Shown piece by piece: positions 11,310 through 32,856 of a stretch of DNA of 64,000 bases (positions are counted from its first letter, which is position 1; each line of letters begins with the position of its first letter). The notes beneath the pieces were generated by a model. The model was given only the letters and a program-made list of their open reading frames with translations. It did not search any database and was not told the DNA's origin. The translations under genes were made by a program, and so were the position numbers. The stretch covers positions 124,001 through 188,000 of the forward strand of contig NZ_JAVBXX010000019.1 of the NCBI RefSeq assembly GCF_030824335.1, read 5' to 3'. This DNA is from Azonexus sp. Lineage in GTDB: Bacteria; Pseudomonadota; Gammaproteobacteria; Burkholderiales; Rhodocyclaceae.

Positions 11310-11313
11310 GATG

Positions 11314-12050: not shown

Positions 12051-12072
12051 CGATACTGCGATATCCGGGAGC

Positions 12073-12515: not shown

Positions 12516-14004
<1,489 letters not shown>

Positions 14005-14010
14005 GAATAT

Positions 14011-15479: not shown

Positions 15480-15488
15480 AAGGGCCGA

Positions 15489-16402: not shown

Positions 16403-16405
16403 GGG

Positions 16406-17128: not shown

Positions 17129-17598
17129 TGAGCCCCCTGTCCTTCCGTTGCCTTGCTGAAAAGGAACTGACTGATTAGCTTTTCCAAAACAACAGCAGAC
17201 TGGGTTTTGGTAATCAGATCGCCTGCCAGCAACATTTTTTCGTCGCCCCCAACATCCAATCCAATGTATTGCTCGCCGAGCAAGCCAGCGGTGTAGATGG
17301 AAGCAAACGAATCCTTCGGAAAACGATAACGCCCGTCAATCTCCATTGTCACCACGGCTTCATAACTTTCGGGGTCGAAGCGGATGTTGGCGATGCGGCC
17401 AACCAGCACACCTGCGCTTTTGACCGGGCCACGAGCTTTCAAGCCGCCGATGTTATCAAACTTGGCCTGCAGCACGTATGTATCGGACAGATGGGCGCTG
17501 GAAAGGTTGCCTACCTTGAGGGCCAAAAACAACACCGCAGCGAAGCCCAGCGCCACAAAAAGACCGACCCACAAGTCGAGAACAGTACGGTTCATCAA
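17125..17598 (-). CDS. mlaD: MCE-domain phospholipid transporter subunit MlaD
   Basis: 157 residues. One N-terminal transmembrane helix (LWVGLFVALGFAAVLFLAL) is followed by a single MCE domain (FDNIGGLKARGPVKSAGV, then GLLGEQYIGLDVGG). MlaD forms a hexameric ring on MlaE in the periplasm that passes lipid to or from MlaC. It overlaps both mlaE and mlaA by 4 nt. Confidence 0.96.
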   Translation of the reverse strand: MMNRTVLDLWVGLFVALGFAAVLFLALKVGNLSSAHLSDTYVLQAKFDNIGGLKARGPVKSAGVLVGRIANIRFDPESYEAVVTMEIDGRYRFPKDSFASIYTAGLLGEQYIGLDVGGDEKMLLAGDLITKTQSAVVLEKLISQFLFSKATEGQGAQ

Positions 17599-18386
17599 TT
17601 ACCCCGGAACATGAACGAAGTGAGAATAAAATCCAGCGCCAGTATGGCCATGGCAGAAGTCACCACCGTGCGAGTGATGGCCCGCGAAACCCCCTCGGCC
17701 GTCGGGACAGAGTCATAACCTTCAAATACGGCAATCAGTGAAACAGCAAAACCGAATACAGCACTTTTGATGACGCCATTCATGATGTCATAGCGAAAAT
17801 CCACACTGGACTGCATCTGGGACCAGAACGCACCGTCATCAACGCCAATAAACACAACGCCAATCAACCAGCCACCGAAAACCCCCATTGCTGAAAACAT
17901 TGCTGCCAGCAAAGGCATGGAAATCACCCCAGCCCAAAATCGGGGCGCTACAACGCGAGCAAGCGGATTTACCGCCATCATGTCCATGGCCTTCAGTTGT
18001 TCGGTTGCTTTCATCAGACCAATTTCTGCCGTAACCGAAGATCCGGCACGCGACGCAAAAAGCAAGCCGGCCACAACCGGCCCCAACTCCCTGACCAGAG
18101 AGAGCGCAACAAGGACACCAAGTGCCTCGGTCGACCCGTAGCGCTGCAAGGTTTCATAACCTTGCAAGCCCAGCACCAAGCCAACAAACAACCCGGAAAC
18201 CAGAATAATCAACAACGACAGCACGCCGCTAAAATAAATCTCGCGCAACGTCAGAGGAAGACGACGAAAAGCCGTACCCGAATGCGCCAGAATGGCAAAC
18301 AGGAAACGCGTGGCAAAACCAAGTCGCCAGACACGATTAACAGTGGCATGTCCGATGTGGCGCAATAAATCAATCGGCCCTGGCAT
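17595..18386 (-). CDS. mlaE: ABC transporter permease MlaE
   Basis: 263 residues, MlaE/YrbE permease family. The conserved LVRELGPVVAGLLFASRAGS, AEIGLMKATEQLKAMDMM and the C-terminal segments match. It forms the membrane core of MlaFEDB. It overlaps mlaF by 17 nt and mlaD by 4 nt. Confidence 0.96.
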   Translation of the reverse strand: MPGPIDLLRHIGHATVNRVWRLGFATRFLFAILAHSGTAFRRLPLTLREIYFSGVLSLLIILVSGLFVGLVLGLQGYETLQRYGSTEALGVLVALSLVRELGPVVAGLLFASRAGSSVTAEIGLMKATEQLKAMDMMAVNPLARVVAPRFWAGVISMPLLAAMFSAMGVFGGWLIGVVFIGVDDGAFWSQMQSSVDFRYDIMNGVIKSAVFGFAVSLIAVFEGYDSVPTAEGVSRAITRTVVTSAMAILALDFILTSFMFRGN

Positions 18387-19194
18387 TTACCCCCCCGCTC
18401 AAAAAATCCTGCCGCACGGATGGGGCCGGATAGTCAAAATGTACGGGACCATCCGCTTCGGCATAGACAAACTGGTGCACATACGGATCGTTCGAGGCAC
18501 GAATTTCATCCGGCGTACCTTGCGCAACCACCTTGCCGCCACTCAAAAAATAGATGTAATCGACGATCAGCAGGGATTCCTGAATATCGTGCGTCACCAT
18601 GATCGATGTTGCCCCGAGCGCATCGTTGAGCGAACGAATCAAGCGACCAATGACGCCCAGCGCAATCGGATCAAGACCGGCGAATGGCTCGTCATACATC
18701 ATTAGCATGGGATCAAGGGCTATGGCCCTGGCTAGCGCAACACGTCGCGCCATGCCCCCGGAAAGCTCTGCAGGCATCAAGGCATGCGCGCCGCGCAAGC
18801 CCGCTGCTTCCAGCTTCATCAATACAAGATCGCGGATCATCTCTTCCGAGAGATCAGTGTGCTCCCTCAACGGGAAAGCCACATTATCGAAAACAGACAA
18901 GTCAGTAAATAATGCACCAAACTGAAAAAGCATGCCCATCTGACGGCGCAGGCGATACAACTCCGCTTCAGACATCTGGCAAACTTGGTGTTTTTCAAGG
19001 CGCACGCTACCGCCAGTCGGGCGTAGTTGACCACCAATGCAGCGCAACAAGGTTGTTTTGCCACAACCAGACCCCCCCATGATGGCCACCACCTTGCCAC
19101 GAGGAATCTTCATATTGATTCCCTGTAACACAGGCCGCTCGTCATAGGTGAAATGAAGGTCCTGAATATCGACCAGGATGTCGTCCGACTGCAC
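18370..19194 (-). CDS. mlaF: ABC transporter ATP-binding protein MlaF
   Basis: 274 residues if started at the GTG at 19194 (then QSDDILVDIQDLHF); a farther upstream start at 19275 adds 27 residues unlike the family. Walker A MGGSGCGKTTLLR, signature ELSGGMARR, Walker B LMMYDEPFAGLDP and the switch His in VTHDIQESL are present. It energises the Mla phospholipid transport complex. First gene of the minus-strand mla operon; 142 bp separate it from the divergent pilus operon. Confidence 0.95.
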   Translation of the reverse strand: MQSDDILVDIQDLHFTYDERPVLQGINMKIPRGKVVAIMGGSGCGKTTLLRCIGGQLRPTGGSVRLEKHQVCQMSEAELYRLRRQMGMLFQFGALFTDLSVFDNVAFPLREHTDLSEEMIRDLVLMKLEAAGLRGAHALMPAELSGGMARRVALARAIALDPMLMMYDEPFAGLDPIALGVIGRLIRSLNDALGATSIMVTHDIQESLLIVDYIYFLSGGKVVAQGTPDEIRASNDPYVHQFVYAEADGPVHFDYPAPSVRQDFLSGGVNARAD

Positions 19195-19336
19195 GGGATT
19201 CCCCAAAAAAAACAGGCTGCATTCTATCAGAAATCGCAGCCGTACCCGGCCGACGGGGAAGCAAGAACAGCACAATTAATGACAAAGTCGTATTTTATCG
19301 CTAACATGCAATGCGAAACGCATAAACAAGGATCTC

Positions 19337-20968
19337 ATGACGGCTCAGACCATATTATTGCTGGGATTTGCCATTCTGCTCGGCGGTTGCAGCGCCCCAT
19401 TGCCCAAAGCGCCACTACGTGGCCACCTGCAAAATCAGACACCTGAGGCAAGCGGCAGCATTCCGCAGATCGTCGAACGCCTGGCCGAGCCTCAGGACGT
19501 CGCCATACCCCGGCAACGCCTGGGCAGCGAAAAGTTCAGCGTAACGGTGCATCGTGTACCGGTTCGCGACTTGTTATTTGCTTTGGCTCGCGATGCCGGA
19601 ATCGACATCGATATAGCCCCCGGCATTAACGGACTAATCACCCTGAATGCACTTGAGCAGCCTTTGCCCGCACTACTCGCCCGCATCGCCCGCCAAGTGC
19701 CATTGCGCTTCGAGCTCACGGCAGACAGCCTGCTTATCCTGCCAGACACGCCCTACCTCAGACACTACCCGGTCGATTACGTCAATCTGGCCAGGACAGT
19801 GAATAGTGCAGTGTCAAACAATATGCAAATCGGCAATACAGCAGGCAATACCGGCAACAGCATTGGCGCCGGCAGCCTGTCGAATACCCGCATTGAAAAC
19901 ACAACACAGCATCGCTTCTGGGAAAACCTGGAGAAGAATCTGCGCATTTTGTTGGCCGAGCAGGCAACAACAACTTCTGCGACCGACACCGGAGAAGCCG
20001 AAAAAAACCCGACCAGAACAGCGCCCACGACATTGCTCATCAACCCGGAAGCCGGCCTGATTTCGGTGTTTGCGACACGCAACCAGCACTTGGGCATCCA
20101 AGCATTCATCGATCGTGTCGGACAGTCGGCCCGCCGCCAGGTGATGATCGAAGCCACCATCGTTGAAGTGGCGCTCGGCGAAGGTCACGAGCAAGGTATC
20201 GACTGGAATGGACTGGTCCGCGGAGGCTTACTTGAATTTGCCGGGAATTCACTAAAAAACACAGTCAATCTGCGCTACAGCCGGGATGACACGCCGCGCG
20301 CCCTGATCAGCCTGCTCGACAGCTTCGGGACCAGTCGCGTTCTCTCAAGCCCACGAATTTCAGTACTCAACAATCAAAGCGCACTACTCAAGGTGGTCGA
20401 AAACTATGTCTATTTCACTGTCCGTGCTGACACGACGACGACCGCCAATGTCGGAACCACGGTTACCTATTCGACTACGCCGCAGACTGTCTCGGTCGGT
20501 CTGGTACTCGGGGTAACGCCACAAATATCAGCCGATGATTCGGTACTGCTCAACATCCGGCCAACCATCACCAGCATTGGGCGGGAAGTCCCTGACCCCA
20601 ACCCTGACCTGCGCAAGAACGGGATAGAGAATCTTGTCCCAATGATCCGAACGCGGGAAATCGAATCGGTAATGCGGGTATCCAACGGACAAATTGCCGT
20701 ACTCGGTGGCCTGATGGAGGATCGCATCAATCAACGGAACAATCGCCTGCCCGGTCTCGGAGACATTCCACTAGCCGGCGAACTATTCAACAACCGGAAC
20801 AATCAAGCGCAAAAAACCGAGCTAGTAATCTTCCTGCGCCCGGTGGTCATTCGCGAAGCCAGTCTGCGAGGCGATTTTTCTGGTTTGGCGGATTACCTTC
20901 CGGATACGGGCTTTTTTCGGCCAAGCGAACACCTCCCCTCATCCAGATATACCGGAGCGGAACACTGA
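19337..20968 (+). CDS. mshL: outer-membrane secretin, MshL/PilQ-like
   Basis: 543 residues. Lipoprotein signal with lipobox LLGGC (Cys18). An N-terminal secretin/TonB-like STN region (about 60-130) is followed by a Ser/Asn/Gly-rich stretch (about 155-190) and the secretin domain (about 265-520). Motifs include VMIEATIVEVALGEGHEQG, SRVLSSPRISVLNNQSA, GLVLGVTPQIS and NGQIAVLGGLMED...LPGLGDIPLAGELF. Secretins form the outer-membrane channel of type IV pili and T2SS; domain order and size match MshL best. It starts a ten-gene plus-strand operon and abuts the next gene (TGAATG). Confidence 0.9.
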   Translation: MTAQTILLLGFAILLGGCSAPLPKAPLRGHLQNQTPEASGSIPQIVERLAEPQDVAIPRQRLGSEKFSVTVHRVPVRDLLFALARDAGIDIDIAPGINGLITLNALEQPLPALLARIARQVPLRFELTADSLLILPDTPYLRHYPVDYVNLARTVNSAVSNNMQIGNTAGNTGNSIGAGSLSNTRIENTTQHRFWENLEKNLRILLAEQATTTSATDTGEAEKNPTRTAPTTLLINPEAGLISVFATRNQHLGIQAFIDRVGQSARRQVMIEATIVEVALGEGHEQGIDWNGLVRGGLLEFAGNSLKNTVNLRYSRDDTPRALISLLDSFGTSRVLSSPRISVLNNQSALLKVVENYVYFTVRADTTTTANVGTTVTYSTTPQTVSVGLVLGVTPQISADDSVLLNIRPTITSIGREVPDPNPDLRKNGIENLVPMIRTREIESVMRVSNGQIAVLGGLMEDRINQRNNRLPGLGDIPLAGELFNNRNNQAQKTELVIFLRPVVIREASLRGDFSGLADYLPDTGFFRPSEHLPSSRYTGAEH

Positions 20969-21412
20969 ATGCGAGCCCTGCACAAACTACTGCTCAGCCT
21001 GACTCTGGCAAGTGCGAACATTCCGCTCGCTGCCCACTCAAGCGAACAACTCGCCACGCTGGGCATGCGCAATCTTGCAGCCTACAGCCCGCAGGAGCAG
21101 GAAAGTCACTTGCACCTCCTGATCTCCGAACACCCGGGCGATATGGCACTACATTTTCACCTCGGCAACCTGCTGGCCGGCCAACAACGCTGGGCGGCTG
21201 CAAGAACGGCGTACGCCCGTGCCGCCGAGTTGTCCATCGAACACCCGGATATCCATTACAACCTGGCCATCGCGCTTGACCACTTGGGGCAATCGACGCA
21301 GGCAGCACGCCACTACCGGATGGCCCTTCGTGCGGCAAAAAACCGACCTCACATGTTTCACCCGACGACGGCCGAACAACGCCTGAGAGAAATCGGAGCA
21401 AGCGCATCATGA
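20969..21412 (+). CDS. tetratricopeptide repeat protein in pilus operon
   Basis: 147 residues. A signal peptide is likely (LHKLLLSLTLASANIPLAAHS). Two or three TPR units follow from about residue 50 (HFHLGNLLAGQQRWAAARTAYARA, here split by repeat boundaries, then YNLAIALDHLGQSTQAARHYRMAL). It resembles the TPR part of MshN, which follows mshM in canonical MSHA loci, but is much shorter and lacks a recognised transmembrane N-terminus. It would act in the periplasm, perhaps as a secretin pilotin or assembly helper like PilF/PilW. That role is inferred only from context. Confidence 0.8.
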   Translation: MRALHKLLLSLTLASANIPLAAHSSEQLATLGMRNLAAYSPQEQESHLHLLISEHPGDMALHFHLGNLLAGQQRWAAARTAYARAAELSIEHPDIHYNLAIALDHLGQSTQAARHYRMALRAAKNRPHMFHPTTAEQRLREIGASAS

Positions 21413-23076
21413 AGCAGCGAATACTTGGTCAACGTCTGCTTGACGCCGGCTTGATCAATCAGGATCAATTACGCATTGCCTTGATCGAACAGGAAAAAAC
21501 CCGCCAACGACTCGGCCAGTTGTTGCACCAGCTGGGTTTTGCTGCGGAAAGTACAGTCCACGACATCCTGGCCGAGCAGCTAAATTTGCCACGCTACAAA
21601 CCGGCCAAACATCAAATCAGGCCGGAAGCCATACGCCTGATCCCTGCGGACATGGCACGCCGTCACCGCCTGTTGCCGATTGCACTGGATAGCACAGGGC
21701 GTCGCCTGCAACTGGCGATGGCAACACCCAACGACCCCGCGACACTTGCTGGCATGCAGACACCGGCTCTGGCCGGCCTCGATCTGGATATCCTGCTTGC
21801 CGGCAACAACGAAATCGAACACGCCATCGATCTACACTATGGCCACAGCTTGGCGATCGACGACATACTTGCCGAACTCGAAGGCAAGCCCTTGGCGAGC
21901 ACATCGACTGGCGACACACCTGGCAAATCTCCGGCCGTCAGGCTGATCGATGCAGTGCTCGGCGATGCAGTCCGCGAACAAGCCTCCGACATTCATTTCG
22001 AACCCGAGGCTGCCTGCCTGCGCATCCGTTACCGGATCGACGGCGTACTCGACACCATTCGCATCCTGCATAAATCGACCTGGCCTGCCTTGTCGAGTCG
22101 GCTGAAAATACTGGCCGGCATGAATATCGCCGAAACTCGTGCCCCGCAGGATGGCCAGATCAGCCAGCAGATCGCCGCCCGCCAGATCGATTTTCGTGTT
22201 GCCAGCCAGCCGACCATGCATGGCGAAAATATTGTCTTGCGCATCCTGGATCGCCAGAAAGGCATCGTACCGCTCGCCGCGCTAGGCCTCGATGCAACCC
22301 AGTTCAAGCTGTTCGAGCGCATGCTCAGTCGCCCGGAAGGCCTGTTGCTGGTCAGCGGCCCCACCGGCAGCGGCAAAACCACAACGCTTTATTCTGTCCT
22401 CAATCAGCTCAACCACCCAAGCGTGCACATCATGACGCTGGAAGATCCCGTCGAATACCCGTTTCCGTTGATCCGCCAAACCTCACTTTCGGACAACGTC
22501 AAACTCGACTTTGCCGGCGGCGTCCGTTCGATTCTTCGTCAGGACCCCGACATCATGCTGATCGGCGAAATCCGCGATGGCGAAACCGCCAGCATGGCAC
22601 TGCGCGCAGCTCTGACCGGCCATCAGGTATTCGCCACCCTGCACGCAGCCAGCGCCATCGCCGCCTTGACGCGCCTGCGCGAACTCGGCGTCGAACAACA
22701 CATGCTGCATGGCAACCTGATCGGCGTCGTTGCGCAACGGCTGATCCGTCGACTGTGCCCGCATTGCCGGAGCAGCCGACCGGCCAGCTCGGCGGAAATG
22801 GCCTGGCTCAAGCTGCCGCACCTTGCCATAGCCGGCCAATGCGTCAACTGCAAGCAGCAAGGCTACAGCGGCCGCTTGGCACTGCTCGAAATCCTGCGCA
22901 TCGATCCGGCACTCGACAATCTACTGGCCGAAGGTGCCAGTCCGCCGCGATTACTCGAACAAGCCCGGGCGAGCGGTTTTCGGCCATTGAGCGAAGGGGG
23001 ACTGGATTTGCTCAGAGCCGGCGAAACAACGCTCGAAGAAATTGCTCGCAACGTCGATCTGAGCGAGTGGGTCTAA
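21409..23076 (+). CDS. mshE: pilus assembly/secretion ATPase, MshE-like
   Basis: 555 residues. The N-terminal about 140 residues are a MshEN (T2SSE_N) domain with the repeated pattern LGQRLLDAGLINQDQL and RLGQLLHQLGFA, the arrangement known to bind cyclic di-GMP in MshE. The C-terminal motor has Walker A GPTGSGKTTT (about 318), an Asp box, Walker B LRQDPDIMLIGEIRDGE and the His box LTGHQVFATLHA. A tetracysteine zinc motif CPHC...CVNC lies near 447-490. It would power extension of the pilus or pseudopilus from the cytoplasm. It overlaps the TPR gene by 4 nt. No retraction ATPase (PilT) is encoded in this operon. Confidence 0.93.
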   Translation: MKQRILGQRLLDAGLINQDQLRIALIEQEKTRQRLGQLLHQLGFAAESTVHDILAEQLNLPRYKPAKHQIRPEAIRLIPADMARRHRLLPIALDSTGRRLQLAMATPNDPATLAGMQTPALAGLDLDILLAGNNEIEHAIDLHYGHSLAIDDILAELEGKPLASTSTGDTPGKSPAVRLIDAVLGDAVREQASDIHFEPEAACLRIRYRIDGVLDTIRILHKSTWPALSSRLKILAGMNIAETRAPQDGQISQQIAARQIDFRVASQPTMHGENIVLRILDRQKGIVPLAALGLDATQFKLFERMLSRPEGLLLVSGPTGSGKTTTLYSVLNQLNHPSVHIMTLEDPVEYPFPLIRQTSLSDNVKLDFAGGVRSILRQDPDIMLIGEIRDGETASMALRAALTGHQVFATLHAASAIAALTRLRELGVEQHMLHGNLIGVVAQRLIRRLCPHCRSSRPASSAEMAWLKLPHLAIAGQCVNCKQQGYSGRLALLEILRIDPALDNLLAEGASPPRLLEQARASGFRPLSEGGLDLLRAGETTLEEIARNVDLSEWV

Positions 23077-23078
23077 GC

Positions 23079-24269
23079 ATGTATTTTCGCTTCAAGGCAC
23101 TCGACGCGCGGCAGCAATTGATTAACGGCGAAAGCGAAGCGCTCGACCTCGATGCACTGATCCAGCAACTGCAGCAACAGGGGCTTGAGTTGCTGCACGT
23201 TCGTCGCAAACGCAAACGGCGTGTACCGCGTATATCACGGCGCGACATCATCGATTTCTGTTTTCAGATCGAGCACTTGCTCAATGCCGGCATCCCGCTA
23301 CTCGATGCACTGCACGATCTGGCCGAACACAGCGCCAGTACGCACCTGCGCGCGCTTTGCCAACGGCTGAGCAGAGCAGTCAGTAACGGACAAGCGCTGT
23401 CAGCCGCCCTGCAAACAGAAGGGCGGCAATTGGAACCGGCTTTCATCGGCCTGATCCGGGCTGGTGAAATCAGCGGTCGCCTACCCGACGTACTACAACG
23501 CATGGGCCACAATCTGCAGCAAGCCGAAGCGCTTGCCGCCCGAACCAGTCAGGCGCTGACCTATCCCGCCGTGGCCGGGGCCCTGGTCATTGGCGCCAGC
23601 ATTTTCCTGATGCGTTTCCTGGTTCCCCAAGTTCGTGTTTTTCTCGACGAGGCCGGACTTGCCTTGCCACTGCATACCCGCCTGCTGTTTGCCCTCAGTG
23701 ATTTTCTCGACCGCTACTGGGGATGGGTAGCCGGCCTGCCGCCCTCCTTGCTGCTTATCGCCATCCTTGCAGCCCGCAGCAGTCCAGGCATCCGCCTGCA
23801 ACTTGACCGCTATGCGCTAAAAGTGCCACTGACTGGCGCGTTGCGGCGAAAAACACTGATCGCCCGCCAAGCCGATTTACTCGCACTGCTTTACGCTACC
23901 GGCATTCCTTTGCTCGAAGCGCTGGAGGCGCTGCACAAAAGCTGCGCCAATCGATTCCTTGCCCAAGCCCTGAAGCAAACGCGCGACGCCGTTGAGCAAG
24001 GCAGCAGCCTGGCCGACGCCTTCGCCCGACACGAAATTTTCCCCCCGCTGCTGATTCGCATGTTGCAAGTTGGCGAAAGGAGTGGCGCGCTCGAAAAATC
24101 CTTGGGCAATATTGCCCGACTTTACGAACGCGAAGCCAGTACCTCGATGAAGCGGCTGCAAACGCTGATCGAACCAGCCCTGACCTTGAGCATCGGCATC
24201 CTGCTCGGCTGGATCATGCTATCTATCCTGCAACCGATCTACAGCATCATCGGGCAGACCGCGCGATGA
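23079..24269 (+). CDS. mshG: inner-membrane platform protein, MshG/GspF-like
   Basis: 396 residues from the ATG at 23079, two bases after the mshE stop. Two GspF domains (about 60-190 and 265-390) with three transmembrane regions. Diagnostic strings are FCFQIEHLLNAGIPLLDAL, LIRAGEISGRLPDVLQRM, LLALLYATGIPLLEALEAL and LIRMLQVGERSGALEKSL. It forms the rotor platform through which the MshE motor adds pilin subunits. It overlaps the next gene by 4 nt. Confidence 0.93.
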   Translation: MYFRFKALDARQQLINGESEALDLDALIQQLQQQGLELLHVRRKRKRRVPRISRRDIIDFCFQIEHLLNAGIPLLDALHDLAEHSASTHLRALCQRLSRAVSNGQALSAALQTEGRQLEPAFIGLIRAGEISGRLPDVLQRMGHNLQQAEALAARTSQALTYPAVAGALVIGASIFLMRFLVPQVRVFLDEAGLALPLHTRLLFALSDFLDRYWGWVAGLPPSLLLIAILAARSSPGIRLQLDRYALKVPLTGALRRKTLIARQADLLALLYATGIPLLEALEALHKSCANRFLAQALKQTRDAVEQGSSLADAFARHEIFPPLLIRMLQVGERSGALEKSLGNIARLYEREASTSMKRLQTLIEPALTLSIGILLGWIMLSILQPIYSIIGQTAR

Positions 24270-25621
24270 CCCGACATTGCCAGCTTTACCTTGAAGCCGG
24301 AGAGCTATCCGCCTGGCAGCGCAAACAAGGGCAAGCACAAGAAATCGCCCGGTTTGCCGACACACCGGACGGCTTGGCACGTTTTTCCGCTTTCCTCGCG
24401 GTTGACCGCAAAACTCGCTATTCGCTGCTGGTCAACCTGCCCGACGAAATTTTTGTCAGTGAATCGCTCCCTCGACTACGCCGCAGCGAACGTCAGGAAG
24501 TCCTTGCCGCCAAGGCGCGCCGCTTATTCCCGGACACACCATGGCACTGCGCCACCCGCAGCCAGTCCGACGAAACCCGTTTCCTTTTGCTGGCACTGGG
24601 CCAAAGCGCCCCGCTAAGCCGCTGGACAGATCGCATCAAAGCTGCCAACAGCGCGCTGGACAGCCTGCACAGCTTGCCGCAACTCTTGCCGGTGTTGCTC
24701 AAAAAATCTCTGCCACACAAGCCAAGCCAACCCAACCCAGCCCTGCTCACGCTTTCATTGCACGACAACAGCGCCCGCTTCAGCCTTCTGACGCATGGCT
24801 ACCTGCGTATTTCACGCCTGAGCCAACTCACCGAAGGCGCCACACTGGCCGACGAATACCGCCGTTTTGTCGATCACATCACCCGCCAATGCGGCCTTGA
24901 AGCGGGCACTGCGCTCTGCGTGATCGGCGATGCCGAACAACTGGCACAAATTGACCTACCGAATATCGTCGACCGCATCACGAGCCCAGCAACCAATAGC
25001 GCCGGCCTGTTTCTGGCTATCCCACGTCAGCAATGGCCGCGCGAGCAATTCGCCCCGCTGGCGATGCGTCAGCCGGCCAGACAACAAAGGCAGACTGAGT
25101 GGCTCTGGCGCAGCGCGGTGCTACTGCTTCTGCTTGGAGCAGCCATCTCGCTCGAGCGCCTGAACAGCGAGTTGCGCAACCAGGCTGCCATCGAAACAAT
25201 CCAGGATGCGACACGACGCATCGACACAGCAATTGCACAAAATGACCAGTTGCTGACGCACAGTTCGCTGAACCGCGAGCAGTTGCAACAACTGGCCCAA
25301 GACCATCCAAAGCTGCTCGCCCAAAGCGATGCCTTCAGCGCCTCACTCCTTGCACTAAGCCAAAGCCTGGAGCGGTCGCCGGCCATCGAACTCGCACGTA
25401 TCGACTGGAAAATCGACGGTTTTCCACCGTCGACCGCAACAATGCAAGTAGATGGACAAATCAAGCACCACAACGGTACGTCGGCCAATTTGTCGTTACG
25501 CCATTTCCACGAGCAGCTCAAAGCCAGGCAGGCGGTCAGCATACTCAACGCACCCAGCGCACAACCGGGCGCGACCGACTTGCCGTTCAGCCTCCTGCTG
25601 AGCCAGCGGGAGAAGCCATGA
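24266..25621 (+). CDS. pilus alignment-complex protein (PilM/PilN- or MshI/GspL-like)
   Basis: 451 residues. A cytoplasmic N-terminal half (to about 275) is followed by one transmembrane helix (about 283-299, AVLLLLLGAAISLERL) and a periplasmic part with a heptad-rich helix (about 300-375). This layout equals PilM joined to PilN, or GspL/MshI. Sequence conservation is low, so the assignment rests on position between the platform protein and a PilO-like protein. It contains one GTTGACCGCA (24411, read as AVDRK) and two GTCGACCGCA words (24968 and 25429). Confidence 0.7.
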   Translation: MTRHCQLYLEAGELSAWQRKQGQAQEIARFADTPDGLARFSAFLAVDRKTRYSLLVNLPDEIFVSESLPRLRRSERQEVLAAKARRLFPDTPWHCATRSQSDETRFLLLALGQSAPLSRWTDRIKAANSALDSLHSLPQLLPVLLKKSLPHKPSQPNPALLTLSLHDNSARFSLLTHGYLRISRLSQLTEGATLADEYRRFVDHITRQCGLEAGTALCVIGDAEQLAQIDLPNIVDRITSPATNSAGLFLAIPRQQWPREQFAPLAMRQPARQQRQTEWLWRSAVLLLLLGAAISLERLNSELRNQAAIETIQDATRRIDTAIAQNDQLLTHSSLNREQLQQLAQDHPKLLAQSDAFSASLLALSQSLERSPAIELARIDWKIDGFPPSTATMQVDGQIKHHNGTSANLSLRHFHEQLKARQAVSILNAPSAQPGATDLPFSLLLSQREKP

Positions 25622-26169
25622 AACACGACGCTCTGCCACGCCAGATCACCCTCCCTCAGCCTCTACGTCTGCCGCTTGCCGCCGTACTGATCGCTGGTGC
25701 ACTGGCGACCGGCAGTATCGTCTGGCGCATTGATCGTGCAGCAACGACCGAGGCGCTGCGGCTAAGCCGCCAGAGCCATTATGATTTGCGCGCCAAACAA
25801 CTGATGCAACAAATCGCCAGCGCCGATACCGTATCCGCCGGACTGGCGATTTACCACAGACTTCACGCTGCTCAACAAGCATCCACTGCGCCTTACGAGA
25901 CCGCCATGGGCTTCCCCCCTGGCGCCACAATCGAGATCGAACAGCCCCAGCCGACACGCAGCACAACAGACCTATGGCGCGAATACACGAGCCGTCTGCA
26001 GCTGACCATTCCACACGAAGGCCACTTGCTCAAATTGCTGGCCGACTGGCGCAGCCAATCAGATGGACTTCACCAGCTACGCGCCTGCCGAATCGAACGG
26101 CTGGCCGATGCACTCCAGGCCGATTGCCAACTTACCCGCTTTGAACTGACAACTAAGCGAGCGCCATGA
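25618..26169 (+). CDS. pilus alignment-complex protein, PilO/MshJ-like
   Basis: 183 residues. One transmembrane helix near the N-terminus (about 17-37, RLPLAAVLIAGALATGSIVW) is followed by a heptad-like helix and a small periplasmic domain with LAKLL-type helices. Size, topology and position after the PilM/N-like gene match PilO, MshJ or GspM. It overlaps both neighbours by 4 nt. No diagnostic residue motif is visible; the call is context-based. Confidence 0.6.
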   Translation: MKHDALPRQITLPQPLRLPLAAVLIAGALATGSIVWRIDRAATTEALRLSRQSHYDLRAKQLMQQIASADTVSAGLAIYHRLHAAQQASTAPYETAMGFPPGATIEIEQPQPTRSTTDLWREYTSRLQLTIPHEGHLLKLLADWRSQSDGLHQLRACRIERLADALQADCQLTRFELTTKRAP

Positions 26170-26471
26170 AAAAAACCCTGTTGTTGAGCAGCCTCCTGAT
26201 CTGCACGCCTGGCTACTGCGAAGCGCCGGGAAGATTGTTCTTCACCCCGGCGGAACGACTGAGCATCGACCAAGGCGCCCCCGCGGCAGACACGCAGGCC
26301 CACTATCGGCTGGATGGCACCGTAAAATCCAGCAACGGACAGCCAATTTACTGGCTCAACGGACAAACCGGCAATCAACCGAACCCCACGCTGGCCGTTG
26401 GCGACAGCAGTGATGCGCCACTCCTCCCGGCCAACAGCATCCGTACTCATCGCAACGCGGCCAGTCGATGA
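26166..26471 (+). CDS. small periplasmic pilus-operon protein, PilP/MshK-like
   Basis: 101 residues with a signal peptide (KKTLLLSSLLICTPGYC, cleavage near residue 20). The mature part begins GRLFFTPAERLSID and contains LDGTVKSSNGQPIYWLNG, a pattern seen in small periplasmic proteins that follow PilO-like genes. PilP/MshK link the inner-membrane complex to the secretin. The function is inferred from position. It overlaps both neighbours by 4 nt. Confidence 0.55.
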   Translation: MKKTLLLSSLLICTPGYCEAPGRLFFTPAERLSIDQGAPAADTQAHYRLDGTVKSSNGQPIYWLNGQTGNQPNPTLAVGDSSDAPLLPANSIRTHRNAASR

Positions 26472-28441
26472 GCCGAGCACCAGCGCACCCGTCATCTTCA
26501 CGTCAACGACAAGGCGGCGCCATCCTGTTTGCGCTGCTGGCCTTCAGCCTGTTCGGCATGGTTGCTTACCTGTATCTCGCCAACGGCCGAGCACCACGCA
26601 CCGCCCAAAGTGCTGAAGCGGCCCTGCAAAAGACGCTGGCCCGGGCCAGTGAAGCCCTGATTGCCCGAGCAATGGCCGACGACAACCGCCCAGGCAGCCT
26701 GCCTTGCCCCGATTTATTGACCGACACACCGAGTCTTGCCAATTACCCAGGCGACGGCAAAACCGATTTGCTGACGCGCAATCAATGTCCGAGCCAGATC
26801 GGCTGGCTACCCTGGGTCACCCTGGACATGCCGCAAACACGCGATGACCACCAGGGTACGCTGTGGTACGTCATCGCACCGGGCTTGTCCGACGATGAAA
26901 GCGCCATGCCAATCAACAGCGACAAAACAACCGGCCTCGCCCTGCATGGCACTGGCGAAATTGCTGCCCTGCTGATCGCCGCCCGCGCCCCCTTACCCGG
27001 ACAACACCGCCCATCGGCATTGCCGGAAAATCATCTCGAAGGTCAATTAAAAGTCGGCCCAACGCTCGACTATATCGGCCACACGAGACCTGACAATGAC
27101 AAAATCCTGGCCATCAGCCGGGGCGAACTGATGGCGGCAGTGGAACAAGGCATCGCACAGCGCGTCCGTCATTGCCTGTCGGCACACGCTGGGCAAACCG
27201 GTCGTTACCCCTGGCCCGCGCCACTCAGCAGCACGGCGCGCCAAGGACAAAGAGATGCCTTGTTTGGTCGGGTGCCGCTCACCCAGCCGAGTGACGGCAT
27301 CAGCCGCGACATCGCCCAAGCCAGCGCCGACCTGACGAGACGAAGTGCCAACCTGACTGCCGCAACGGATGCGCCGGGCAAGCTGACCGCACTGAGCCAA
27401 CTGGCGGAATTTTCCACGCGGGCTAAAAATCTATTCACCAATGTTGATGACGTCGCCGACGAAGTAAAAATCCTCGGTGACAAGGTCACGCTGGCCCTGA
27501 ATAAAGTGCAAGCCAGCATCGCCAGCGCGGCGGAAAACGATCGCATCGCCGTTAGCGAAGGGAATGCCATCCTGACTCAGCAAACGGCCGCAATTATTGC
27601 GGTCAACACGCTAAGTGATGCACTTTTCCGCTACGGTCTAGACGCCCTGTCGTGGCAAGCGGGTCAGCCCGGCCTCCCCATGGGCGTTGGCGCAGAAAAT
27701 GCACACGCTGCGCTAACCGATCAGCTCAAGCAACTACAAGAAGCCGGTGAAACGTTCGCCGCGCAACACAACGCGCAACCCCGTCCATTGCAAGCGCTGC
27801 TCGTCGCCCCGGCCCAAGCCATCGCGACACGGGCCGACGAAACTGCCCGCCTGAGCCAAGTGATTGCCAAGCATGCGACGGCAATCATCCAACTGGCGAC
27901 AGCCAACTTTGCTCTGGCTGCACAGATGTCTGATGCCAATAGTAAAGCGAGCACGGCAATAAGCACCTGGCAAGACAAACCAAGCGCCAGCAATCGCAAC
28001 AAGATGGACACAGCGCTGAGCGAACTCGCCCAAACCACCACGCGACTCTCTACCGGCCTGCAAGACCAAACAGCAACGACCACCAGTAGCGCTGCTGCGG
28101 CCTGGCCCATCAGCTGGGCATCCGCCCACTGCGCCTTCCTGAAAAAAGGCCCGGGCTGGTGGAATGACAACGCCTGGGCCGAACTGTTTTTTTACCAGAT
28201 CACGACACCAGACAGCCTCATCCAAGGTGACCTGCGGGTTGGCGGCAAGGACAAGCTGCCCCTGCTGGTGCTCAGCGCCGGTCCGGCCTTGACTGGTCAA
28301 ACACGCCCCGCCAACCGGATTGAAAATTATCTTGAGCGGCGGAATGCCGACCCGTCACGCAACGGCGAAGCCCGCAGCCCAAGCCCGTTTTTTGACCTCC
28401 CGAGCAACCGTGAGCCGATCAATGACCGCATCGCCTACTAA
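26468..28441 (+). CDS. large prepilin-like protein with split LPCP domain and helical insert
   Basis: 657 residues. The N-terminus QRQGGAILFALLAFSLFGMV resembles a PilX-type prepilin leader and hydrophobic helix, but there is no Glu at +5, so processing is uncertain. SLPCPDLL (LPCP at 78-81), Cys107, GWLPWVTL (114) and LWYVIAPG follow. A long Ala/Gln/Thr-rich helical region (about 275-540) then intervenes. The C-terminal part (546-657) has WNDNAWAELFFYQI and LVLSAGPALTGQTRPANRI. The next gene has the same LPCP / C-x6-LPW module without the insert. Its 3' end overlaps the next gene by 20 bp. A minor or tip pilin is a plausible role; no close family is recognised. Confidence 0.75.
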   Translation: MSRAPAHPSSSRQRQGGAILFALLAFSLFGMVAYLYLANGRAPRTAQSAEAALQKTLARASEALIARAMADDNRPGSLPCPDLLTDTPSLANYPGDGKTDLLTRNQCPSQIGWLPWVTLDMPQTRDDHQGTLWYVIAPGLSDDESAMPINSDKTTGLALHGTGEIAALLIAARAPLPGQHRPSALPENHLEGQLKVGPTLDYIGHTRPDNDKILAISRGELMAAVEQGIAQRVRHCLSAHAGQTGRYPWPAPLSSTARQGQRDALFGRVPLTQPSDGISRDIAQASADLTRRSANLTAATDAPGKLTALSQLAEFSTRAKNLFTNVDDVADEVKILGDKVTLALNKVQASIASAAENDRIAVSEGNAILTQQTAAIIAVNTLSDALFRYGLDALSWQAGQPGLPMGVGAENAHAALTDQLKQLQEAGETFAAQHNAQPRPLQALLVAPAQAIATRADETARLSQVIAKHATAIIQLATANFALAAQMSDANSKASTAISTWQDKPSASNRNKMDTALSELAQTTTRLSTGLQDQTATTTSSAAAAWPISWASAHCAFLKKGPGWWNDNAWAELFFYQITTPDSLIQGDLRVGGKDKLPLLVLSAGPALTGQTRPANRIENYLERRNADPSRNGEARSPSPFFDLPSNREPINDRIAY

Positions 28442-29111
28442 AGATTCGCCACAGGCCGGCTTTTCGCTCTTCGAACTGGCCCTTGTGTTGATTGTTTTCG
28501 GTCTACTGGCAGGCGGCATGCTGAGTAACTTATCCGGTCAACGCCGGTACGGCGAAGAACAACGCGCCCAAGGACAACTCGAACTCAGCCAGGAAGCGCT
28601 CTACGGCTTTGCGATCAGCCATGGCCGCCTGCCTTGCCCGGCCAACCCGACACTGGATAGCGCCGCAAGCGATGCCGGCAACGAAGATTGCAGTCGCGAA
28701 TACGGCGTCTTGCCGTGGCGCACACTTGGCTTGGGCGAAACCGATCCATGGGGACAGCGGTTGAGTTACTACGTGCGCCAGACATTTACGACACCACCAG
28801 CCAGCGGCGCCCGAGCCGGCTTCAGTCTGGACAGTATCGGCAACGCCAATATCCGCCCGGCCGCCAATGCAGGCAACAAACTGGCCGACGCACTGCCTGC
28901 CGTGCTGGTCAGCCATGGCCGCAACGGATTTGGTGGCTATCGCCAAAACGGCCAGAGAACTTCAGCCAGCCATCTGGACGAACAGGAAAACGCCGATGCC
29001 GACCTGATTTTTGTCAATCGACTACCTGACGACAATTACGACGACCAAGTGATCTGGCTTACCTCGAGCATTCTGAACAGCCGACTGCTTGCCGCAGGAC
29101 GAATGCCCTGA
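28422..29111 (+). CDS. prepilin-like protein with LPCP/LPW module
   Basis: 229 residues from the ATG at 28422, which lies inside the end of the preceding gene. Type III leader: SPQAG/FSLFELALVLIVFG, cleavage after Gly13, Glu at +5 present. The mature part has GRLPCPANP (LPCP 70-73), Cys90, GVLPWRTLGLGETDPWG (LPW 97-99) and PAVLVSHGRNGFGGY. The two Cys may form a disulfide. It is probably a minor pilin or pseudopilin processed by a PilD-type peptidase, which is not encoded in this window. Confidence 0.85.
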   Translation: MTASPTKDSPQAGFSLFELALVLIVFGLLAGGMLSNLSGQRRYGEEQRAQGQLELSQEALYGFAISHGRLPCPANPTLDSAASDAGNEDCSREYGVLPWRTLGLGETDPWGQRLSYYVRQTFTTPPASGARAGFSLDSIGNANIRPAANAGNKLADALPAVLVSHGRNGFGGYRQNGQRTSASHLDEQENADADLIFVNRLPDDNYDDQVIWLTSSILNSRLLAAGRMP

Positions 29112-29137
29112 CTCATTCCACCACCAAGGAGCGCAGC

Positions 29138-29770
29138 ATGCCCGCAAAACAACACGGCTTTACTCTGGTCGAAATTGCCATCGTACTGGTCATTATCGGC
29201 ATCCTGCTGGGTGGCATTTTGAAGGGCCAGGAAATGATTACCCAAGGCAAAATTCGCAGCGTCGAGAAGGAGATGGACAGCATCTCGATTGCCCTCCTCA
29301 GCTATCAGGATCGTTACAAGGCACTTCCTGGAGACGATGACAAAGCAAAAAGCCGGTGGACAAACACCGAAAACGGCAATTTCAGCGGGACCATTGACGA
29401 AGCCTTCAATTCAGTTAACGACGCACATGAAACCCGTCGCCTGTGGAATCATTTACGTCGCGCCGGCTTCATCAACGGCGACAGCGAATCTTTCTCCCAA
29501 CCCGGCAATGCCGTTGGCGGCCTGGTCGGGGTACAAACCGACATTCGCAACGGCACCAGTATCGTGGTTAGCGGGGTGGTCATATGCTCGACCAATCTGC
29601 CGGCCAAAGTCGCCAATGCCGTCGACGCCCAACAGGACGACGGCAACCCAGCCCGGGGAAGCCTGCGCGGCTTTTCTCAGAGTGCCAGCAACACCCCTGA
29701 TTTTGCCACCACCATCAGTGCCTACGTTGATGACGGCAACAAGCTTTACACATTATGCAAAACCACTTGA
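29138..29770 (+). CDS. type IV prepilin / pseudopilin
   Basis: 210 residues. Classic type III signal: PAKQHG/FTLVEIAIVLVIIGIL, cleavage after Gly7, Glu at +5. The mature part continues LKGQEMITQGKIRSVEKEMD and YQDRYKALPGDDD, a pattern frequent in betaproteobacterial prepilins of this class. A Cys pair (VVICSTN at about 151 and the C-terminal LCKTT) may close a disulfide loop as in major pilins. It is preceded by a good ribosome-binding site (AAGGAG) and follows a 26-bp gap, larger than elsewhere in the operon, so it may be translated separately and more strongly. A candidate for the major subunit. Confidence 0.9.
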   Translation: MPAKQHGFTLVEIAIVLVIIGILLGGILKGQEMITQGKIRSVEKEMDSISIALLSYQDRYKALPGDDDKAKSRWTNTENGNFSGTIDEAFNSVNDAHETRRLWNHLRRAGFINGDSESFSQPGNAVGGLVGVQTDIRNGTSIVVSGVVICSTNLPAKVANAVDAQQDDGNPARGSLRGFSQSASNTPDFATTISAYVDDGNKLYTLCKTT

Positions 29771-29779: not shown

Positions 29780-31741
29780 TCAACGCTTGAGCAAACGCTC
29801 TTCGGCTGCCACAACAGCCCCCTGCTCACCCAGCACGACAACGACATCGCCCTCATCCAGCCGCGTTTCCGCTGCGGGCTCCAGCGCACGGATGCCACGT
29901 CGACGAATCGCACTGACTTCGCAACCGAGCAACTCGAGTCCGAGCTCGCCCAACGTCTGACCAATGGCCGCCGCGCCCGGCGTCAACCAGATTGAATGCA
30001 GGCGCGGCTGACTCCCTTCATCCTCATCGCGATCGGACAAGCCCCGATAGAAACCGCGCAGCAAGCGATAGCGCTGTGATCGGGTCTGGCGAATTCGCTT
30101 CAGGACACGATTGATCGGCACGCCAACCAGCACCAGTGCATGCGACGCCAGCATCAGGCTGGCCTCCAGGGTTTCCGGCACAACCTCCGCAGCACCGGCA
30201 CTGGCCAGACGGTTCATGTCTTTTTCATCCGAGGTCCGCACCACCACCGGCAGGTCGGGGCGCATTTCCTGAACATGATGCAAGACCTTTTCGGCCAACG
30301 GCGTATCACTCATTGTGACAATCACCACGCTGGCCCGCATCAAACCGGCCGCCATCAGCGCTTCCTTGCGTCCGGCATCTCCGAAAACCACACTTTCACC
30401 ACCGGCCGCAGCTTCCCGTACGCGATCCGGATCAAGATCCAGAGCAATGCTCTGCACGCCTTCCTGCGCCAGAAAGCGCGCCAGATACTGACCATTGCGC
30501 CCGAAGCCGCAAAGAATGGCATGTTTTTCCGAGGTCATAGAATGGGCGGCAATCTGCGTCACCTGCATGGAGCGCAGTAACCACTCACTGGCCACGAAAC
30601 GCATAACCAGCCGTTCGCTGTACTGCACGATGAAAGGCGCAATCAACATCGACAACACCAGCGCGGTCAGGGCAACCTGCTCGATTGCCTTCGGCATGTT
30701 GGCGATCACCCCGAGCAGCACGAAACCGAACTCGCCCCCCGCACACAACCACAGCGCCGAGCGAATGGAATTACCCGGTGTCCCGCCAAGCTTCCAGGAC
30801 AATGCCCCCACAATCAGCGCCTTGAAAAGCAGCAGAGAAATCAATACCAGCCCGACCTGCCACCATAAGCCGACCAGAATGTTCATATCGAGTTTCACAC
30901 CGATGGTGACGAAAAACAGCCCCATCAGCACATCACGAAATGGCTTGATGTCCTCCTCCACCTGCATGCGGAACTCGGTTTCGGAAATCAGCATGCCCGC
31001 GACAAAGGCACCCAGCGCCAACGACAGGCCGGCATGCTCGGTAATCGTTGCCAAACCAAGCGTAATCAGCAAGACGTTTAGCACGAACACTTCGCCGGAC
31101 TTGGCCCGGGCAACGAAGTGAAACCATTTGCGCATCAGCTTCTGCCCGAAAACCAGGATCAAGGCCAGAACGGCCACGGCCTTGAGCATCGCAATACCCA
31201 TCAACATGGCCAATTCGCCGGGTGGCTGGGTCAGCGAGGGCAGCAGGACCAGCAAGGGAACGACCGCCAGATCCTGGAACAGCAACACACCGATTACCTG
31301 GCGACCGTGCGCTGAATCAAGCTCCATGCGTTCGGCCAGCAACTTGGTCAACACCGCCGTGGACGACATGGCAAACACCGCGCCAAGAGCGATTCCCAAT
31401 TGCCAACCAATACCGAGCGCAATGACCAATACCATCACCAGCAGCAAGGTCAGCACCACCTGCAGCAAGCCCAAGCCAAAAACGATGCGCTTCATCGCAT
31501 GTAACTTGGGCAACGAAAACTCCAGGCCAATCGAGAACATCAGGAAGACCACGCCAAACTCGGCCAGATACTCAGCCCGATGAATGTCCGACATCAAATT
31601 CAGCGCATGCGGACCAATGATGCTACCGACGGCCAGATAGCCGAGCACAGGCGGCAAATTGAAACGACGAAAGAGCACCACGGCGAGAACCGAGGCACCA
31701 AGCAGAAGGAGAACGAGGGAGAGTGCGCTCAAAGCGGGCAA
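29780..31741 (-). CDS. monovalent cation:proton antiporter, KefB/KefC-type (CPA2)
   Basis: 653 residues. An N-terminal CPA2 exchanger domain of about 12 helices (residues 1-380; FLMFSIGLEFSLPKL, MSSTAVLTKLLAER) is followed by a TrkA-N/RCK nucleotide-binding domain (AILCGFGRNGQYLARFLAQEG, about 405-425). A TrkA-C domain ends the protein (about 560-650). It would mediate K+ or Na+ efflux coupled to protons, gated by nucleotide or thiol ligands. No ATG lies in frame before the first helix, so it probably starts at the TTG at 31741 or at a TTG three codons later. It converges on the pilin gene with a 9-bp gap and is divergent from kdsD. Confidence 0.92.
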   Translation of the reverse strand: MPALSALSLVLLLLGASVLAVVLFRRFNLPPVLGYLAVGSIIGPHALNLMSDIHRAEYLAEFGVVFLMFSIGLEFSLPKLHAMKRIVFGLGLLQVVLTLLLVMVLVIALGIGWQLGIALGAVFAMSSTAVLTKLLAERMELDSAHGRQVIGVLLFQDLAVVPLLVLLPSLTQPPGELAMLMGIAMLKAVAVLALILVFGQKLMRKWFHFVARAKSGEVFVLNVLLITLGLATITEHAGLSLALGAFVAGMLISETEFRMQVEEDIKPFRDVLMGLFFVTIGVKLDMNILVGLWWQVGLVLISLLLFKALIVGALSWKLGGTPGNSIRSALWLCAGGEFGFVLLGVIANMPKAIEQVALTALVLSMLIAPFIVQYSERLVMRFVASEWLLRSMQVTQIAAHSMTSEKHAILCGFGRNGQYLARFLAQEGVQSIALDLDPDRVREAAAGGESVVFGDAGRKEALMAAGLMRASVVIVTMSDTPLAEKVLHHVQEMRPDLPVVVRTSDEKDMNRLASAGAAEVVPETLEASLMLASHALVLVGVPINRVLKRIRQTRSQRYRLLRGFYRGLSDRDEDEGSQPRLHSIWLTPGAAAIGQTLGELGLELLGCEVSAIRRRGIRALEPAAETRLDEGDVVVVLGEQGAVVAAEERLLKR

Positions 31742-31785
31742 CTTGAAGTCAGGTATACTGCGGCCATCATAACCTTTGCGCGCTC

Positions 31786-32784
31786 ATGAACCCAAATCCG
31801 CTTCCCGCCAGCTTCTCGCCGGAACGTGCCCTGATGCTGGGTCGCCAGACGCTGGCCATCGAAGCTGCGGCGGTCGACGCCCTGAAAAACCGGATAAACG
31901 GTGAGTTCTCGGCCGCCGTCGAGATGATTCTCATCAGCCGGGGACGCCTGATCGTCAGCGGCATGGGTAAATCCGGGCATATTGCGCGCAAGATTGCCGC
32001 CACCATGGCCAGTACGGGCACTCCCGCCTATTTTGTCCATCCCGCCGAGGCTAGTCATGGCGACCTGGGCATGATTACCCGTCACGACATCCTGCTTGCA
32101 CTATCCAATTCCGGGGAATCCGAAGAACTGCTGCGTATCGTGCCAGCCATCAAGCGCCAAGGTGCCAACCTGATCGCCATGACCGGCGTCGCCGATTCAA
32201 CGCTGGCCCGGGAAGCCGACATCCATCTCGACGCAGGGGTCGCACAGGAAGCCTGCCCGCACAACCTGGCACCAACAGCCAGCACCACTGCAGCACTGGC
32301 TCTGGGTGATGCACTGGCTGTCGCGCTGCTTGATGCGCGAGGTTTCGGGCCGGATGATTTTGCCCGCTCACATCCCGGCGGCTCGCTGGGACGACGCTTG
32401 CTGACGCACGTGCGCGATGTCATGCGCCCCCTGGCCCGAGTGCCAACCGTACTTCCCGGCGCGCCGATCGGCGATGCCATCGTTGCGATGTCGCGCGGCG
32501 GCCTGGGTCTGGTCGCGATAGTTAATTCAGAAAATCAGGTAATCGGGATTTTTACCGATGGCGACCTGCGCAGAGCTTTTGAAAAGAGGCTTGACCTGCA
32601 GCATGGCAGCATCGCCGATGTCATGCACCCGACACCGCACCATATCGGGCCAGACTGTCTGGCGGTCGAAGCCGTTGAAATGATGGAGCGCTTGCGCATC
32701 AATGGCCTGCTCGTCTGCACCAACGATGGCCAGCTTCAAGGAGCCCTTAACATGCATGACTTGTTCACTGCGAAGGTTATCTGA
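31786..32784 (+). CDS. kdsD: D-arabinose-5-phosphate isomerase KdsD
   Basis: 332 residues. An N-terminal SIS domain (VSGMGKSGHIARKIAATMAS, HGDLGMITRHD, SNSGESEELLRIVP) is followed by two CBS domains (about 205-325). It makes arabinose 5-phosphate from ribulose 5-phosphate for KDO and so for lipopolysaccharide core. Neighbouring lptC and lptA fit the normal kdsD-kdsC-lptC-lptA-lptB cluster, but kdsC is absent. The stop overlaps an ATG of a 21-codon open frame (TGATG). Confidence 0.95.
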   Translation: MNPNPLPASFSPERALMLGRQTLAIEAAAVDALKNRINGEFSAAVEMILISRGRLIVSGMGKSGHIARKIAATMASTGTPAYFVHPAEASHGDLGMITRHDILLALSNSGESEELLRIVPAIKRQGANLIAMTGVADSTLAREADIHLDAGVAQEACPHNLAPTASTTAALALGDALAVALLDARGFGPDDFARSHPGGSLGRRLLTHVRDVMRPLARVPTVLPGAPIGDAIVAMSRGGLGLVAIVNSENQVIGIFTDGDLRRAFEKRLDLQHGSIADVMHPTPHHIGPDCLAVEAVEMMERLRINGLLVCTNDGQLQGALNMHDLFTAKVI

Positions 32785-32849: not shown

Positions 32850-32856
32850 TGCCTCA

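Follow-up and report, generated by a model that had tools for sequence, protein, structure and literature searches.

The described systems closest to the locus treated here are the mannose-sensitive hemagglutinin (MSHA or MSH) pili of Vibrio and Shewanella. Denise et al. 2019 list mshM among the mandatory genes of their MSH model, which nonetheless requires only 3 of these. According to a published survey, all MSH loci lack a prepilin peptidase (PMC6668835), and the MSHA pilus of Vibrio cholerae is reported to depend on PilT (PMC9815625). The present analysis concerns a stretch of 64,000 nucleotides from Azonexus sp. (assembly GCF_030824335.1, contig NZ_JAVBXX010000019.1, positions 124,001 to 188,000), hereafter called the window, in which ten intact genes (g1 to g10), all on the + strand, form a compact operon at 19337-29770, as the initial annotation had stated. 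It is one of a group of MSH-related machines that make up a sister family of their own, with the gene order M-L-N-E-G-I-J-K-pilins. In the window this family is represented by a derived form, which evolves fast and was reduced at the family's ancestral genomic site, between mla and kefB-kpsF. The most economical reading of its function is a putative surface pilus responsive to cyclic di-GMP (c-di-GMP), which would borrow the peptidase PilD and probably PilT from other loci.

The operon shares many features with MSHA. Its secretin passes the MshL model, its ATPase is of MshE type with a c-di-GMP domain, and its platform protein is putatively of MshG type; the description of the operon as MSHA-like was sound. 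An MshN protein with tetratricopeptide repeats (TPR), I-J-K-like genes, the lack of a peptidase in the locus and a pilin without Glu5 are also common to both, and a canonical MshP-like gene scores 22 bits against the g8 profile. An apparent canonical MSHA locus also lies in the window genome itself, on contig C13. The differences are of two kinds. The window family forms a clade separate from canonical MSH (support 100 for both), and its gene order departs from the canonical I-J-K-L-M-N-E-G-pilins, which was also read at the canonical loci examined here. Furthermore, the window operon has three pilins, no MshQ and no mshM, and half of MshN is missing. Judged by the Denise et al. 2019 model, mshL is recognized marginally (253.0 versus 250.2 bits), mshE is recognized by its c-di-GMP domain, and mshM is absent from the window locus. 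The scores also fall below the type IVa cut-offs, with 458.8 bits against 675.65 for PilB and 115.5 against 284.35 for PilQ. It is chiefly the place outside the canonical clade, the stronger reason, that keeps the operon from being filed as MSHA. Neither phylogeny nor gene content assigns its components to one characterized system with identical genes, and the reduced and unusual composition claimed for it at the outset is backed by phylogeny and synteny.

Several published loci and machines can be compared with this family. The 2009 genome paper of Dechloromonas aromatica RCB describes VIMSS581889-581898 as an export secreton of unassigned function and names no pilus (PMC2907700). As described there, this secreton resembles the wide form of the family (see below) in its pulDEFG-type genes, exeA-like ATPase, histidine kinase, adenylate cyclase and glnG-like regulator, and it adjoins a toluene-resistance cluster, read here as mla. 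Unlike the window, it apparently represents the wide form. MSH-homologous clusters of Sideroxydans and Gallionella were reported in 2013 as rearranged compared to Vibrio, in a paper that gives no gene list (PMC3770913). The Gallionellales loci L122, L139 and L152 carry the family with mshM, and the reported clusters are likely the same family. An MSH operon in Herminiimonas is mentioned in PMC5670224; nothing specific to the family was seen in PMC12019908, and no published name for it was found in the open-licence PMC literature searched. According to PMC4098917, ExeAB is needed for assembly of the ExeD secretin in the type II secretion system (T2SS). The wide form is similar in that an AAA ATPase with a SPOR domain, MshM, stands beside a putative membrane protein with periplasmic TPR, MshN, whereas the window form has neither the ATPase nor the cytosolic end of its partner. 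Type IVb pili (9iuf/CofA, TcpA) resemble the operon in the predicted fold of g10, but the machinery and secretin of the window are MSH-like.

The separation of the sister family can be seen in the profile scores. With profiles built from the family's own members, g1 scores are bimodal, family secretins reaching 622-977 bits and canonical MshL proteins 254-313, with two stray matches at 143. For mshM, family members score 460-803 bits versus at most 358, the lower scores coming in part from pieces truncated at the ends of loci. The g1, g3 and g4 proteins of the window fall within the family clade, and its genes follow the order L-(N)-E-G-I-J-K-g8-g9. The order secretin-ATPase-platform-g5-g8 was found in 34 of 39 loci from related genomes and in 56 of 80 named loci, and never was another order seen. 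Among the 39 loci, no secretin was seen in L064, L068 or L070, and g5 was not scored in L033 or L042; among the 80, 15 are incomplete, and eight with enough DNA show no recognized g8 (L096, L101, L130, L132, L134, L136, L149 and L160).

The family is widely distributed. A match to its secretin was present in 73 of the 76 genomes of the genus, including all 51 of good quality. Relatives of g8 exist in 105 of 149 related genomes, and the genome G034 retains the machine without a g8 match. With the g5 profile, the family was detected in 58 of 276 genomes in a sample drawn from the class and in 21 of 249 in one drawn from the phylum, the latter including other classes with several copies. Its carriers comprise Azonexus, Dechloromonas, Zoogloea, Accumulibacter, Methyloversatilis, Propionivibrio, Gallionellaceae, Rugamonas and Pseudoduganella, some of them, such as Zoogloea, counted without a recognized g8. 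Four loci of Zoogloea and Zoogloeaceae (L130, L132, L134, L136) have g1, g3, g4 and g5 and show no g8 within 10-12 kb downstream; their pilin set may have been replaced. At locus L203 of genome G217 (C1:77000-96900, ~3000-19057), the family operon from mshM to g10 lies directly upstream of canonical msh genes. This neighbourhood, the only such case seen, may hint at an origin by tandem duplication. Seven genomes of another class (G443, G446, G449, G470, G474, G482, G507) carry two g5-family copies on the same contig, separated by about 4-5 kb; one copy lies within a frame of about 900-1000 aa, possibly a fused or doubled machine.

The direction of change is indicated by phylogeny and by genomic site. 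In a mixture-model tree with canonical MSH as outgroup, canonical MSH and the sister family each form one clade (100), and the loci of the compact kind are nested among those of their own genus, behind the intermediates L040, L153 and L100, which have no mshM and a short or absent MshN. The supports on the way into the compact group are 100, 96 and 91; compact, intermediate and wide Azonexus-type rows together make up one side of a branch with support 100, and the compact stem branch is long (0.81). The divergent mla genes lie upstream in most loci of both forms, with MlaF in 45 of the 59 loci for which 5 kb of upstream sequence are available, and kefB-kpsF follow downstream in both forms where sequence extends far enough. 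Three points weigh against reduction in place. The canonical-rooted tree used 6 of 10 compact loci, the four most divergent (L033, L035, L036, L042) having been left out. An LG FastTree rooted on PilB/PilC places the window's group deepest in the family (0.99-1.00). MlaF is not seen in 14 of the 59 loci, including the intermediate L100. When all ten compact loci were included in a mixture-model tree without outgroup, they again stood beside L100, L153 and L040, and the 20 other-family rows lay together on one side (100), although the midpoint-rooted drawing makes the compact loci look deepest. A separate ancient lineage for the window's group was considered and rejected, given the nested position with canonical MSH as outgroup and the shared genomic site. 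Since the mixture-model tree and the shared site disagree with it, the deepest FastTree placement is read as long-branch attraction.

Comparison of the two forms displays what has been lost. In the wide form, a response-regulator gene is located upstream of mshM (L084 and L113; sigma-54 type by Pfam in L113), mshM (454 aa in L051, with AAA and SPOR domains) stands before the secretin gene, and MshN has about 400 aa, starting mostly with MSLLxDALK in relatives with mshM. Between g9 and g10, L051 carries genes for an adenylate cyclase (186 bits) and a putative histidine kinase, the latter with no Pfam match; relatives of the cyclase and of the kinase-like gene were found in 25 and 23 loci, respectively. 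In the compact group, mshM, the sigma-54 regulator, the cyclase and the kinase-like gene are all gone from the locus, and a three-frame search upstream of the window secretin did not find mshM. The compact MshN measures 143-160 aa in 6 of 10 loci, is absent from L033 and L035, and has a longer reading frame in L032 and L042. The compact g10 follows g9 at 20-30 nt in eight of the ten loci, and in the other two its first start codon overlaps. By comparison, among relatives with mshM in which both g9 and g10 were seen, g10 is more than 500 nt from g9 in 15 of 17, a distance that fits a separately expressed major pilin.

Within the genus, 51 of 76 genomes (33 of the 51 of good quality) contain the family mshM. 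The compact set consists of twelve genomes, ten loci being placed by the tree and G021 and G037 by secretin match only, and none of the twelve, the window genome included, has the family mshM at E<=1e-80. Among ten compact genomes examined for any MshM relative at E<=1e-5, none was detected in G030, G037 (83% complete), G044, G045 and G058 (77% complete). A weak relative (30% identity) is present in G050 and a shorter one with 43-47% identity in G008, G018, G064 and the window genome, where the only MshM relative belongs to the C13 locus. Six other loci (L096, L097, L107, L112, L115, L135), from Zoogloeaceae and metagenome-assembled genomes of unclassified Betaproteobacteria, are also without mshM and MshN, and g10 lies close behind g9 in L107 and L135, where g10 was seen. 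These are apparently parallel reductions.

The loss of mshM was also compared with the start of MshN. The motif MSLLxDALK(K/R)A, or a close variant, begins MshN in 60 of 63 loci with mshM, the exceptions being L122, L139 and L141. It is missing in 29 of 37 loci without mshM; the other eight (L060, L130, L132, L143, L155, L158, L159, L207) have motif-like starts, some of them decayed. The pattern was written and widened after the sequences had been viewed. These 100 loci remained from 110 rows, ten having been dropped as mshM was unscorable or a contig end intervened; of seven named loci dropped earlier as duplicates, five were exact copies, and L088 and L104, both with mshM and motif, were not shown to be identical. 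On the tree, 10 independent contrasts were obtained, of which 3.6 went the same way, 0 the opposite way and 6.4 showed no difference, and the joint loss is not significant after phylogenetic correction (sign test, median p 0.125). The correlated loss is a lead and no law. Likewise, g9 and g10 are adjacent in 17 of 17 loci without mshM versus 2 of 17 with it, counting only loci where g10 falls within the sequence, and four independent pairs give a median p of 0.25.

The genes of the operon are tightly packed. With start codons placed at 23079 for g4 and 28422 for g9, the junctions from g1 to g10 are 0, -4, +2, -4, -4, -4, -4, -20 and +26 nt. The initial annotation was right that eight of nine junctions are tight (overlap, abutment or at most 2 nt) and that the last pilin stands apart: the sole real gap (26 nt, 29112..29137) precedes g10 and carries an AAGGAG ribosome-binding site, which, as initially suggested, may tune the stoichiometry of the pilins. 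The secretin g1 (19337..20968, 543 aa) matches MshL TIGR02519 with 253.0 bits against the cut-off of 250.2 as well as Secretin PF00263, and has a lipoprotein-like signal with the lipobox LGGC, found by pattern. The canonical MshL on C13 passes the same model with 252.8 bits; a single MshL model therefore cannot separate the two systems. The truncated MshN, g2 (20969..21412, 147 aa), has a signal-peptide-like start and TPR family matches and is without the cytosolic/membrane half of MshN. The MshE-like extension ATPase g3 (21409..23076, 555 aa; T2SSE 397.7 bits, MshEN 49.6) bears an N-terminal domain of c-di-GMP-binding type (NF053729, 50.0 bits versus a cut-off of 38), and its residues 4-112 match the MshE structure 5htl (E 1.8e-12). 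Two residue patterns for c-di-GMP binding fit 77 and 105 of 115 family ATPases and 1 and 7 of 8 canonical ones; as the first fits only 1 of 8 canonical ATPases, it is no fair test, and reliance was placed on the family model NF053729 alone. The platform protein g4, putatively of MshG/PilC type (23079..24269, 396 aa), is recognized by its T2SSF domain (PF00482, 172.8 bits).

For g5 to g8, searches of Pfam and NCBIfam gave no family at cut-off, and their names follow from position, topology and synteny. The putative inner-membrane protein g5 (24266..25621, 451 aa), MshI-like and combining PilM- and PilN-like parts, constitutes a conserved family of its own, with a sole sub-threshold match to DUF7490 (13.1 versus 27). 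The presumed MshJ/PilO-like g6 (25618..26169, 183 aa) and MshK/PilP-like g7 (26166..26471, 101 aa, signal-peptide-like start) keep their places among relatives.

Three pilin-like genes end the operon. The large g8 protein (26468..28441, 657 aa) was predicted by AlphaFold2 from 24 sequences (pLDDT 87.0, pTM 0.83). A hydrophobic N-terminal helix is followed by an N domain with kinship to g9 (hhalign 99.4%); a helical insert then spans residues 278-537 approximately, and the C domain is in part a repeat of the N domain (hhalign 98.3%). By strict pattern, the prepilin signal G|FxxxE is found in none of 93 g8 family members, whereas the same pattern matches 70 of 88 g9 and 36 of 38 g10 proteins; by a looser test, 5 of the 93 g8 proteins have a Glu close to where the hydrophobic stretch begins, and one has no such stretch. 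In the T2SS, the Glu5-less pilin GspK is located at the filament tip, and by this analogy g8 is likely the tip pilin of the filament. The length of g8 ranges, by reading frame, from about 300 to 2,480 aa. The longest frame, in G029 (L046:10104-17546), may encode a genuinely giant head or have arisen by fusion to an adjacent gene, its near twin in G031 having only 869 aa. Among 32 g8 members, no adhesin domain was found; the domain matches were one EryCIII-like_C, one UDPGT and one DUF6490, the first two being a glycosyltransferase-like domain apparently in-frame with the pilin. Structural matches of g8 (Foldseek, VIA) were to generic helical bundles over residues 275-538, and a PDB sequence search gave no match for g8 and two weak ones for g10.

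The minor pilin g9 (28422..29111, 229 aa) scores 20.6 bits against the N_methyl cut-off of 21.2, and 24.0 in the genome-wide search. The protein g10 (29138..29770, 210 aa; N_methyl 33.7 bits) has conserved Cys150 and Cys207. The fold predicted for it by AlphaFold2 from nine sequences (pLDDT 81.7) best matches type IVb major pilins, namely 9iuf of enterotoxigenic Escherichia coli (Z 9.2 over 158 residues, 3.5 A) and 8uhf of the toxin-coregulated pilus (Z 8.7), at 12-15% identity, and g10 is likely the major pilin, with a type IVb-like predicted fold.

The remainder of the genome, a 3.77 Mb draft with kin in Azonexus/Dechloromonas, was also surveyed. As initially claimed, the operon itself has no mshM, no mshABCD block, no retraction ATPase and no prepilin peptidase, but these are present elsewhere in the genome, on C13, C25 and C30. 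Contig C13 carries an apparent canonical MSHA locus with MshE-/MshG-like genes, two pilins, O/P/C/D-like pilins, an MshQ-like DUF6701 protein (228 bits), I/J/K-like genes, MshL, MshM and MshN, several of these names being presumptive and based on position. On C25, PilB (828.4 bits, over its cut-off) has as neighbours a PilC-like platform and the genome's sole Peptidase_A24 match; two PilT/PilU-family ATPases stand in tandem on C30 (512 and 457 bits versus a cut-off of 319), and a TfpB-type ATPase is present elsewhere (912 versus 850 bits). These findings indicate that the window operon is a second, different system. Of the 12 N_methyl matches of the genome, two are g9 and g10 and five belong to the C13 locus; four more cluster on C28, and one lies at C7:97555. 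These last five are presumably type IVa pilins, and the genome-wide search revealed no further N_methyl pilin near the operon.

Taken as a whole, the operon is rather probably an MSH-family type IV filament machine, reduced in place, with a c-di-GMP switch, a g8/g9 tip and a borrowed peptidase. The lipoprotein secretin g1 would form the outer-membrane pore, and g3, presumably switched by c-di-GMP through its N-terminal domain, would drive the platform g4 to add subunits. In this scheme g10 would polymerize to the filament and g8 with g9 would make up a tip or priming complex, the helical insert and second pilin-like domain of g8 being exposed there as a head that varies between lineages. Processing of g9, g10 and probably g8 would fall to the one prepilin peptidase found elsewhere in the genome, and the PilT/PilU encoded elsewhere would probably retract the filament. 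Compared to its relatives, the compact form has shed MshM, the half of MshN that presumably faces it, and three genes of local regulation or signalling. A surface appendage, one of the initial proposals, is the most likely identity, with adhesion as its presumed function. Several points weigh against it. The pilin nature of g8 is indicated by its N-terminal helix and kinship to g9, its PDB matches being only generic helical bundles; the fold match of g10 is moderate (TM ~0.5); the three pilins might also build a short pseudopilus; the window genome is 91.8% complete; and no experiment on any family member was found in the literature covered.

Such a pseudopilus is central to the secretion system that was also proposed at the outset, a dedicated type II-like machine pushing specific proteins through the secretin. 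The best NCBIfam scores of g4 and g9 are to the GspF and GspG models, though below threshold, and the niche looks free, as none of seven ATPases scored in the genome passes the GspE cut-off (ten T2SSE matches exist, three small or fragmentary ones being left out of the scoring). However, the operon itself falls short of the cut-offs for GspD (159.9 bits against 351.35), GspE (460.2 against 630.25) and GspF (297.7 against 424). It has three pilins only, compared to the five pseudopilins GspG-K, and none exceeds a Gsp pseudopilin cut-off; the predicted fold of g10 is nearer to type IVb major pilins (Z 9.2) than to the major pseudopilin GspG (Z at most 6.0), and no cargo gene was recognized in the operon. 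Secretion is thus kept as a rival and regarded as unlikely. Much less probable still is a decaying MSH-like relic heading for loss. The locus has lost mshM and three regulatory genes, MshN is truncated and the stem branch is long, all of which would agree with it, but all ten genes are intact and their dN/dS against the nearest relative L031 is 0.11-0.55, indicating purifying selection, although synonymous sites close to saturation make the ratios only rough. These values speak for a living system, as do the persistence of the family secretin throughout the good-quality genomes of the genus and the existence of twelve genomes of the compact kind. A DNA-uptake pilus, the remaining initial proposal, is the most improbable: beyond general kinship among type IV filament machines nothing was found in its favour, no competence gene was seen by eye in the list of open reading frames around the operon (no dedicated competence search being made), and a type IVa pilus with PilB, PilT/PilU and TfpB-type ATPases is encoded separately in the genome.

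If the operon is the putative surface pilus, the loss of MshM and half of MshN implies that its secretin must get to the outer membrane unaided by the MshM-MshN axis typical of the family. A broader interpretation, possible but doubtful, is that secretin placement is independent of MshM and the cytosolic tail of MshN, and that the compact machine, with a lineage-variable g8 head on a type IVb-like filament, has a tip that evolves fast and serves to recognize a surface, a partner cell or a phage. If true, one genus would contain a natural experiment in dismantling a pilus machine, and MSLLxDALK would be the docking site of MshM. The reduction series allows a direct test of the parts needed to bring a pilus secretin into the outer membrane, an issue common to MSHA and ExeAB-type systems. 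It is also a natural example of local regulators being lost from a pilus locus, the relatives showing a machine that sheds helper proteins and switches yet keeps its core. The machine is maintained across the genus, and in the window genome it exists beside a true MSHA; annotation by a single MshL model merges the two.

The flanks of the operon, with genes named by eye, are a divergent mla lipid-transport operon (15767-19275) and kefB, kpsF and lptC/lptA-like genes (29780-34034), a neighbourhood kept in most related loci. On the same contig, outside the window, a PilB/GspE-type ATPase of 786 aa (G000:C7:105659-106897; L074:7639-9999) has about 200 extra N-terminal residues and passes none of the extension-ATPase cut-offs scored.

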